Assembly: GCF_000585495.1 (NCBI RefSeq)
Contig: NZ_CP007264.1
Coordinates: forward strand, 496,001 to 560,000
DNA from: Thermococcus nautili
GTDB lineage: Archaea > Methanobacteriota_B > Thermococci > Thermococcales > Thermococcaceae
Reading direction: 5' to 3'
Length of the DNA: 64,000 bases
In this document: positions 17,264 to 57,918 of the stretch, one piece after another
Position numbering within the stretch: position 1 is the first letter of the stretch
How the letters are laid out: every line of letters begins with the position of its first letter
The notes under the pieces: model-generated
What the model was told of the DNA's origin: nothing
Database searches by the model: none
The model's input: the letters and a program-made list of their open reading frames with translations, nothing else
Translations under genes and position numbers: made by a program

Positions 17264-17410
17264 AAGACCACTCTCAGTCATGGCATTATCTATTATGCGT
17301 TTCGTATTAATAACATTTTCTGTTCACTTTTTGCACATTAATTTTAGTGGTAAGCAAAAATAGAAAACAAACCAATTAGGAACAGACTTGATAACCGGAA
17401 CAAGCAGCGA

Positions 17411-17625
17411 AATGTCGCCCGCCCGTAACGCCCGCCCTCATCGAAGGCAACGCCACACTCAGGCGGGTTAACCCAGGCGGGCGAGAACTGTGCCCGGCCT
17501 GGGTTTCCCGCGGTCATCGTGCTCCGGGACGCGGAAGGCCCTCCCGCGGGGACCTCGCTGAGGCCGGGCTGTAGCCCCCGCATCGCCCCCCGGTTCATTC
17601 TCCCCGGGGTCCTCGCGCGGGGGCA
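17411..17625 (-). ncRNA. Triple-hairpin H/ACA guide RNA
   Basis: A very GC-rich block with no convincing gene. Read on the minus strand it folds as three consecutive hairpins, each with a 8-9 bp lower stem (17624-17617 with 17581-17574; 17569-17561 with 17500-17492; 17483-17476 with 17423-17416), an internal loop, a 6-7 bp upper stem, and an apical K-turn or K-loop with tandem G-A pairs and TGA. Each hairpin is followed by ACA (17572-17570, 17491-17489, 17415-17413). The distance from the upper stem to ACA is exactly 15 nt in all three, the geometry of pseudouridylation guides. A TATA box lies about 25 bp upstream. Multi-hairpin H/ACA RNAs are known in Pyrococcus and Archaeoglobus. Confidence 0.88.
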
Positions 17626-17645
17626 TTGTTAGGTAGGGGGCGCGG

Positions 17646-17653
17646 TTTATAAA
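17646..17653 (-). promoter_or_regulatory. TATA box of the H/ACA RNA
   Basis: TTTATAAA within a GGTTTATAAACC palindrome, just beyond the stop of the DUF835 gene. Archaeal transcription starts about 25 bp downstream, which is at 17620-17625, exactly where the first hairpin begins. Downstream of the RNA a T-rich run (TTTTCTATTTTT on the minus strand, near 17355-17370) could end transcription. Confidence 0.7.
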
Positions 17654-17656
17654 CCC

Positions 17657-18751
17657 TCACTCGAGGAGTTTTCTTAACTGGTTGAAGAGGCGCTCTTCAA
17701 CGCTGTTCCTGTCTATTACGAGAATTAAAGTGCCTCCTTTGACCATAACTAGGTCCCTAAGCTTGGATAGAAACTTCATGAGGGAATCCCATGAGTTATA
17801 CATGCTCAGGTATTCAATGCAATCAAGAACGACAACACCAGGAATTCCCATTCTAGCGGTTTCCTCCAGATATTGGAAGGTTATTTCAGTCATTTTTGCG
17901 AGCTCTGTTGGATTAAGCGTTCCTGCTATGTTCTCCCGTCTAAATGGAACCGCCGTTACAAAGTATGTTCTCCATCCTTCGCGGGAGTACTCCAAGTCCC
18001 TTAAAAACGCCAATACTGGTGCATTTTCAAGCTTTGGTAGCAGGGTCTCAAACTCTTTTGGCTGGACTATAATCGTGCCGCTGTGTATCTCCGGGGCCTT
18101 CACATCAATGCTTCCCTCAAGGAATTCCCTCGTGGATGTAAGCCGATACATTGAGTACGCCATCATAACCGTTAGGGCCGTTGAGAGGGTAAACCCTATG
18201 GGAAGGTACCACTCGTAGAGGCCAAAAAGCGCTGCTGGAACGAGATGGAGGCCAAAAAGAAGAACGCTGAGATAGAGCACCTTTGCGGGTTTCTTGTAAA
18301 TGGCCTCTATGGGTTTCAGCAGAACACCACTCGCAAAAACAAAGGCACCGCTTACACCGAGAGAAACCCCAGCAGTTAGGGCCCAGTCGGCGTTACCCGT
18401 AAACCTATACACGGCAACGACGAATCCGTAGAATATCGGCGCCATCAGGCCCATTTTTTTGAGGGTTGAGTGGGACAGCGGTATCGATTCCTCCTCAAGG
18501 AGCCTAACTGCACCAACGAACATGAGCATTGCAAAAATTGTCAGAGAAAGTTCGGCTATTGTCTGTAGAACGCGATTCGTAGATGCAGAAAGGGCAACCA
18601 TTATGAAATCCGCAATCCATGCCACAGAGAAAAACAGAGCCGACCTGCGCCTGCGCTTTAGGTACACCCTCATTATCAGTGCAAAGGCCGTGAGGTCAGC
18701 TATCATGACGAGAAGCCCGCTGACAAAGGGCATTATGTCATTTACCCCCAT
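17657..18751 (-). CDS. Membrane protein with C-terminal DUF835 domain
   Basis: A 364-residue protein. About seven hydrophobic segments fill the first 220 residues, with short basic loops such as KRRRRS. The last 130 residues form a soluble DUF835 domain, recognisable by YFVTAVPFRRENIAG, GVVVLDCIEYLSMYNSW and GGTLILVIDRNS. DUF835 is a Thermococcales-rich domain of unknown function that resembles a degenerate RecA-like or sensory fold. The ATG at 18751 follows GAGGAGGGTTGTTC and lies inside the end of the upstream gene, so the two overlap by 14 bases and are probably coupled. Likely a membrane sensor, by inference only. Confidence 0.8.
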   Translation of the reverse strand: MGVNDIMPFVSGLLVMIADLTAFALIMRVYLKRRRRSALFFSVAWIADFIMVALSASTNRVLQTIAELSLTIFAMLMFVGAVRLLEEESIPLSHSTLKKMGLMAPIFYGFVVAVYRFTGNADWALTAGVSLGVSGAFVFASGVLLKPIEAIYKKPAKVLYLSVLLFGLHLVPAALFGLYEWYLPIGFTLSTALTVMMAYSMYRLTSTREFLEGSIDVKAPEIHSGTIIVQPKEFETLLPKLENAPVLAFLRDLEYSREGWRTYFVTAVPFRRENIAGTLNPTELAKMTEITFQYLEETARMGIPGVVVLDCIEYLSMYNSWDSLMKFLSKLRDLVMVKGGTLILVIDRNSVEERLFNQLRKLLE

Positions 18752-19790
18752 GAACAACCCTCCTCGGGTCGGTAAAGCCGTCCCATCTAAACGGTCCGGC
18801 CGGCGGAGCCCGGACGGCGGTTTCCTCTTCAATCTTCACAACGAGCACCTCCGGTCTGGCTATAACCACGGCCAGCAAACCCCTTTCTCCGTAGTCCACC
18901 ACGCGGTACCCATCCTCGGTTTTCCTGACTGGGAAAATCAGGGTGAATGGCCAGTTGGGATAGTAGGATATCCCCCTTCTCCCGGGAACCCCAACGAGGT
19001 CACCGAAGAGGTAGTAGCCGTAGAGCGGGACTGCCCTGGCGTTTGGAAACTTCTCCTCAACTTCCTTAAGAAAAACGACGTCTGTTCCAACACCGCTTAG
19101 AATAACTGCCTCTATATCCTCCGATGCGCTTTCAAAGAGCCCGATTAAAGGTGGTGCGGTTCTCGCAAGGTTTATCCTGTCCCTCCTAAGCACGCGCTCG
19201 GTGTAGCGGACGAGCGGGTTGAGAATTCTCAGGACTTCCTCAACTCCTTTCTCCTCCAAAACCCTCTTCAGCCCGTCGGTTTCCATTCCTATGAAGTACA
19301 GGTAGCCACCGTAGCTCCACACGAGCTCGCTTATCTCGTCCTGATACCAGCCGTAGGGCCCGTGCGCAAGGGCACGCATCCTGCCCGGGGGAAACGTTTC
19401 GTTCAGGCCGTAAAGTTCGTCGAGGGCAGATTTAAGGTACGAGACGAGGTATCTCACGTATTCCCTGTCCCAGTGTCCGATGGCTCTCTCGCGCGTAGTC
19501 CCTGAGGACTGATAAAAGCGAACCCTGCCGGGGTAGCCCTCTGGTAGAAAATCGGGCCAGTTGGCACGTAGGTAATCTTCTTCTACGAGAAAGCCCCTGT
19601 TGAGCATGTTTTTGACTGTCTCAATGACGGTGTTCCCCACAATTTCCTCATCGGCAACATGGAAGCTCTTCCAATAGGGTGTGTGTTTGAGGTGATAACG
19701 GATGGTTCTTTTGAGGTGGCTTAGAACTTCGTCTTCTTCGACTTTAAGGGGTTCCTCGATTAGACCTTTCGGAACATCTTCGTACGTCAT
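18738..19790 (-). CDS. Truncated-type adenylate-forming (PaaK/LuxE-like) protein
   Basis: A 350-residue protein related to phenylacetate-CoA ligase and LuxE-type acyl-protein synthetases: an N-terminal helix with HTPYWKSF, a phosphate-binding loop FYQSSGTTRERAIGH at about residues 92-106, and a middle region VEAVILSGVGT-like (EAVILSGVGTD). It lacks the C-terminal swivel domain present in the 432-class neighbour. The substrate is unknown. It is divergent from the PaaK-like gene at 19908 and overlaps the DUF835 gene. A TATA-like GCTTATATT at 19813-19821 is about 25 bp before the ATG, so the leader is very short. Confidence 0.75.
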   Translation of the reverse strand: MTYEDVPKGLIEEPLKVEEDEVLSHLKRTIRYHLKHTPYWKSFHVADEEIVGNTVIETVKNMLNRGFLVEEDYLRANWPDFLPEGYPGRVRFYQSSGTTRERAIGHWDREYVRYLVSYLKSALDELYGLNETFPPGRMRALAHGPYGWYQDEISELVWSYGGYLYFIGMETDGLKRVLEEKGVEEVLRILNPLVRYTERVLRRDRINLARTAPPLIGLFESASEDIEAVILSGVGTDVVFLKEVEEKFPNARAVPLYGYYLFGDLVGVPGRRGISYYPNWPFTLIFPVRKTEDGYRVVDYGERGLLAVVIARPEVLVVKIEEETAVRAPPAGPFRWDGFTDPRRVVHGGK

Positions 19791-57857: not shown

Positions 57858-57918
57858 GTGGCGATGATGACGACACCCTCGGCTGACGGTGATGAGCTGG
57901 ACCCGTGCCTGAGCCTAT
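57858..57918 (+). ncRNA. C/D box 2'-O-methylation guide RNA
   Basis: C box ATGATGA (57864-57870), 12-nt guide CGACACCCTCGG, D' box CTGA (57883-57886), 2-3 nt, C' box GTGATGA (57889-57895), 13-nt guide GCTGGACCCGTGC, D box CTGA (57909-57912). GGC before the C box can pair with GCC after the D box. All four boxes are perfect and spacings are canonical. Guided sites would be five nucleotides from the D and D' boxes in targets with sequences CCGAGGGUGUCG and GCACGGGUCCAGC. Overlaps the very end of the antisense vapC. Preceded by its own TATA box. Confidence 0.85.

Follow-up and report, generated by a model that had tools for sequence, protein, structure and literature searches.

HgcG of Thermococcus nautili, a three-hairpin H/ACA guide RNA with its own promoter and a predicted third target in 23S rRNA

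The published rule for archaeal H/ACA guide RNAs places a K-turn or K-loop some 10 layers above the pocket, with the ACA box 14 to 16 nt from the upper stem. HgcG/Pab40 (P. abyssi Pab40, P. furiosus Pf7, and T. kodakarensis Tko1) is a named and studied family of such RNAs, whose Pyrococcus member has been published as the three-hairpin Pf7/Pab40, with a mapped 5' end and two targets demonstrated in vitro. RNA-seq of P. abyssi placed the Pab40 transcript start at 382,389, and Pa40.3/Pf7.3 is reported to target U2016 (PMC4652768). Further work demonstrated that Pab40 modifies P. abyssi U2588 in vitro and that the matching pseudouridine of T. kodakarensis, Psi2592, needs cbf5, nop10, and gar1 in vivo (PMC6138745). 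The literature ascribes an exceptional guide loop of 23 nt to the middle hairpin, Pab40.2. Relatives of the second and third hairpins (II and III) have been reported in Haloferax (Hvo1/Hvo2) and Archaeoglobus (Af4.3), and their targets are given as equivalent (2621 and 1956/1958 in Haloarcula numbering; 1970 for Af). These relatives are likened to HgcG by published description; in haloarchaea a long spacer separates the hairpins, or else the motifs are joined to other partners.

A Thermococcus member of the HgcG family

The locus described here, on the minus strand of a T. nautili window (the whole 64,000-nt stretch of DNA that was analysed), is Thermococcus HgcG (Pab40/Pf7/Tko1), a three-hairpin archaeal H/ACA RNA. 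An earlier note, made from the sequence alone, had read 17411-17653 as a triple-motif H/ACA guide RNA expressed from a promoter of its own, had left the strand unstated, and had named a covariance search with archaeal H/ACA models as a check. The Rfam model HgcG/Pab40 (RF00064), searched against the whole window, scored 215.3 bits, far above its gathering score of 77 (E = 2.3e-61). The match encloses that interval, and all features lie on the minus strand (Table 1). The proposal is borne out by this match, by co-varying stems, and by motifs I and III, which reach published 23S sites that are pseudouridines in Pyrococcus/Thermococcus. The combination of a triple H/ACA guide and a promoter of its own is accordingly already known, in a named and studied family; the additions made here are a corrected structure for the middle domain and a sharper prediction of a target. 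The locus also makes a good positive control, being a named RNA gene whose structure and promoter were recovered without tools.

Table 1. Features of the HgcG locus and of other loci mentioned in the text (window positions unless marked as genome positions)
Feature	Position	Strand	Basis or detail
Full RF00064 match, including promoter	17408..17680	-	Model positions 1-276
Three tandem H/ACA hairpins	17627-17413	-
Purine-rich BRE-like stretch	17659-17654	-	Just upstream of TATA box
TATA box TTTATAAA	17646..17653	-	Sequence
Hairpin I	17570..17627	-	Rfam match, covariation, target scan, numbering, published ortholog activity
Hairpin I pockets, productive register	17616-17611; 17586-17582	-	GCGAGG; GCGAU
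Hairpin I ACA	17572-17570	-
Hairpin II	17489..17569	-	Covariation, target scan, pairing conservation
Hairpin II pockets, productive register	17560-17551; 17505-17499	-	CAGCGAGGUC; AACCCAG
Hairpin II apical UCCGCGU..CGGAG	17520-17540	-
Rfam version of the middle hairpin	17544-17560	-	CGAGG/CCUCG; rejected
Hairpin II ACA	17491-17489	-
Hairpin III	17413..17485	-	Target scan, covariation, numbering, published ortholog target
Hairpin III pockets, productive register	17475-17469; 17429-17425	-	UGGGUUA; GUUAC
Hairpin III ACA	17415-17413	-
84-aa ORF	17344-17598	-	Set aside
DUF835 gene	17657-18832	-
Likely C/D box sRNA	57860-57915	+	ATGATGA, CTGA, TGATGA, CTGA in order
HgcE/Pab105 gene	genome 386772-386983	-	Spanned by a weak, sub-threshold HgcG-model match

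The gene is present in one copy in the T. nautili genome and was found in 88 of 94 Thermococcaceae genomes, including all 74 near-complete ones (at least 90% complete and at most 5% contaminated); the six genomes without it are incomplete assemblies. The P. abyssi ortholog, at 382332-382604, is the published Pab40. By every test made, the T. nautili locus is orthologous to HgcG/Pab40, with which it shares its hairpins, their order, its pockets, the position of its promoter, and the 23S targets of hairpins I and III. The order of hairpins is identical in the 88 orthologs, with a gap of 0 nt between I and II throughout and of 0 to 4 nt between II and III. The 5' loop of hairpin I is 6 nt long in Thermococcus, whereas it is 8 nt long in HgcG/Pab40. 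T. nautili has a second multi-hairpin H/ACA guide, HgcE/Pab105 (RF00060), which has its own locus and other pockets and targets. An 84-aa open reading frame lying over the HgcG locus was set aside because the conserved structure accounts for the sequence.

Architecture, transcription, and the targets of hairpins I and III

The earlier note had described three hairpins each ending in ACA, each with a K-turn or K-loop containing tandem G-A pairs and with exactly 15 nt from upper stem to ACA, a geometry that it judged hard to get by chance. This description holds throughout. All three ACA boxes were located, all three hairpins contain the tandem G-A pairs (with UGA on the 3' strand), and the distance from the last Watson-Crick pair of the upper stem to the ACA is 15 nt in each of GGCGATGCGGGGGCT, AAACCCAGGCCGGGC, and CGTTACGGGCGGGCG. 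Published notation counts a 10-layer GA stem, in which the same distance reads 14 to 15, and the T. nautili hairpins conform to the published archaeal geometry. Hairpin I has a lower stem GCCCCCGC/GCGGGGGC and a K-loop, and hairpin III has a lower stem CGCCCGCC/GGCGGGCG and a K-turn.

That chance is a poor explanation for this geometry is evidenced not only by the Rfam E value but also by folding and by compensatory changes. When compared with 200 dinucleotide shuffles, hairpins I and III folded better than all of them and hairpin II better than 194 (z-scores of -4.6, -2.0, and -3.8 for I, II, and III). Covariation of the three stems in relatives, which the note had asked for, was examined in distinct versions of each hairpin (58 for I, 61 for II, and 79 for III), and compensatory changes were found in all three. 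All six core pairs in the upper stem of hairpin I, and 9 of 17 pairs in hairpin III, show changes on both sides; in hairpins II and III, compensatory changes were more numerous than in any of 500 shuffles. The apical loop of hairpin III, unlike that of hairpin II, is not near-invariant. A search with a hairpin III model had no matches among the other lineages sampled in the class, although the model is narrow and this is weak evidence of absence.

A TATA box, placed by the note about 25 bp ahead of the first hairpin, is present as TTTATAAA, with its first T 29 nt upstream of the first stem base. A TATA-like box starts 27 to 32 nt upstream of this base in 81 of the 88 family members. Lack of a transcript from this strand had been named as grounds for rejecting the proposal; the P. 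abyssi ortholog is transcribed, and its published start, mapped on the P. abyssi sequence, is the first G of the hairpin I lower stem (PMC4652768). In T. nautili, leftward transcription from the TATA promoter of the gene would probably start at or beside the first stem base.

Judging from the family, L7Ae would bind each hairpin at its K-turn or K-loop, and Cbf5-Nop10-Gar1 would bind it at the pocket and the ACA box. Each pocket would then pair with the 23S rRNA sequences flanking a single uridine, and Cbf5 would isomerise that uridine to pseudouridine. Genes for Cbf5, Nop10, and Gar1 were found in the T. nautili genome. Function in T. nautili itself is presumed from the orthologs, and we consider it nearly certain that the locus is explained as an HgcG H/ACA RNA with its own TATA promoter, directing 23S pseudouridylation through its pockets.

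Targets were sought by scanning the T. nautili 16S and 23S rRNAs with each pocket in several registers and comparing the scores with those of 200 shuffles. The best sites were all in 23S rRNA: U2591 for hairpin I, U2681 for hairpin II, and U2019 for hairpin III, which correspond to P. abyssi U2588, U2678, and U2016, respectively. One consistent numbering puts all six positions quoted in the literature on uridines. Shuffled pockets scored as well in 9.5% of cases for hairpin I and 6.5% for hairpin III, and in 0 of 200 for hairpin II. Taken alone, the scan is only suggestive for hairpins I and III, for each of which several registers were tried; the weight behind their targets is their agreement with published positions. 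Moreover, pairing of pocket and target is kept in 88, 88, and 87 of the 88 orthologs for hairpins I, II, and III. Hairpin I probably guides U2591, and hairpin III probably guides U2019, both being published targets for orthologs. U2019 lies in helix 69 of 23S rRNA, at what we take to be the equivalent of E. coli position 1915.

Pairing the pockets with rRNA was a check that the note itself had named. Its registers for hairpins I and III were off by about one base; it is the corrected registers that reach the published sites. Used exactly as written, the original register of hairpin I found no significant rRNA site and that of hairpin III found other sites. Of the three or more pseudouridines that it had envisaged, two have published counterparts in orthologs, and the site of the middle hairpin is a prediction.

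Fold and predicted target of the middle hairpin

Hairpin II consists of a 9-bp lower stem, an upper stem CCCGCGG/CCGCGGG, a K-turn, and a conserved apical UCCG/CGGA hairpin. Rfam instead draws a hairpin CGAGG/CCUCG in the middle domain; 77.8% of its cells are paired, it shows no compensatory change, and its central pair fails to form in 16 of 18 sequences. Under the H/ACA model, 98.6% of cells are paired and double changes occur at 8 pairs, a result matched by none of 500 shuffles. Because the H/ACA stem co-varies and the Rfam hairpin does not, the earlier drawing of this hairpin improves on that of the database, and the middle-domain fold of RF00064 should be redrawn. The wider Thermococcaceae sample needs no 23-nt guide loop. 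The 88 genomes detected with a hairpin II model are the same ones that have HgcG; in other sampled families of the phylum this narrow model had no match, which is weak evidence of absence. The apical UCCGCGU..CGGAG sequence is nearly invariant among the 61 variants, beyond the needs of a K-turn.

With the fold redrawn, the prediction points to a uridine of the peptidyl transferase centre. We take U2681 to be the equivalent of E. coli U2586, beside the catalytic U2585. Its pairing with hairpin II, kept in all 88 orthologs, extends for 4 bp along the 5' pocket as far as a bulge, and for 5 to 7 bp on the other side. The 3'-pocket match is 7 bp in 61 sequences (including T. nautili), 6 bp in one, and 5 bp in 26, among them the Pyrococcus type; Thermococcus differs here from HgcG/Pab40, with 7 bp rather than 5 bp. 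The two duplex arms, at -9.5 and -9.4 kcal/mol, sum to a stronger pairing than those of hairpins I and III. U2681, near the catalytic centre, is thus the site that hairpin II most likely directs, and we put a real modification there at about even.

Published mapping bears on this prediction in two ways. Grosjean et al. (2008) proposed Haloarcula 2621 as the site of the haloarchaeal relative and noted that no modification had been found at the U2681-equivalent site in P. abyssi (PMC2584109). The T. kodakarensis mapping by primer extension used a primer (O-2941) complementary to 23S rRNA just upstream of the U2681 equivalent and, for this reason, could not have seen it. It is conceivable, though less likely than not, that the middle hairpin modifies a site unreported in Thermococcales, either U2681 (perhaps not in Pyrococcus) or, much less probably, U2588 by non-canonical pairing.

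An alternative is that the middle hairpin has lost productive guide function and is retained for stability, L7Ae binding, or the folding of domain V rRNA. The absence reported in P. abyssi (PMC2584109) fits this idea, as does an apical sequence more constant than a K-turn requires. Moreover, pairing with U2681 requires hairpin II to open the tenth layer of its stem (a C.A or C.U mismatch), leaving a 9-layer stem, and the published rules describe 8-, 9-, or 11-layer stems as mostly non-productive. Nevertheless, all 88 orthologs conserve both pockets, the match to the rRNA site beats 200 of 200 shuffles and is stronger than in the two proven hairpins, and Hvo1, the haloarchaeal relative, has been assigned this site as well. 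We regard loss of guide function as rather unlikely.

The middle hairpin might instead guide U1935 (P. abyssi U1932) by folding differently, with a guide loop of 23 nt as modelled for Pab40.2. Pa40.2-L1932, with such a loop, is among the published guide:target pairs, and the AACCC of the 3' pocket pairs with GGGUU upstream of U1935 in all 88 orthologs. In the co-varying fold, however, the 5' pocket forms 0 bp of contiguous pairing in all 88, and the scan score is at chance. The 23-nt loop would also cost the conserved, co-varying upper stem and, by our reconstruction, uses a base inserted only in Pyrococcus. This reading is improbable in our view, and U2681 is the target that we prefer.

An orphan pseudouridine, at T. 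kodakarensis 2589 and P. abyssi 2585 (T. nautili U2588), lacks a published guide, and the 5' pocket of hairpin II, CAGCGAGGU (AGCGAGGU being invariant), matches 23S 2592-2600 as a perfect complement over 9 nt (-15.9 kcal/mol), just downstream of that uridine. The pocket sequence AGCGAGGUC is invariant in all variants, and the rRNA segment is the one bound by hairpin I. However, pairing here would leave more target bases unpaired than the usual two, sRNPs with known P. abyssi guide RNAs gave no modification of 2585 in vitro, the 3' pocket has no upstream pairing (-1.4 kcal/mol), and HgcG commonly shares 9-nt complements with rRNA, 16 being observed against a mean of 9.5 and a maximum of 23 in shuffles; on the last two grounds we do not propose the middle hairpin as the missing guide, a role that we judge very improbable. 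A pocket-pattern search of four genomes for a guide to the orphan site returned numbers of matches similar to those of a reversed control pattern.

Neighbouring features

A DUF835 gene ends a few bases ahead of the HgcG promoter, and similar upstream coding ends occur in several other genomes, which suggests that the neighbourhood is conserved. On the other side of HgcG, beyond a small unassigned open reading frame, lies MoeA. Elsewhere in the window, three C/D-box Rfam families match weakly and below threshold (best E, 0.0055) at a likely C/D box sRNA, which has its box motifs in order.
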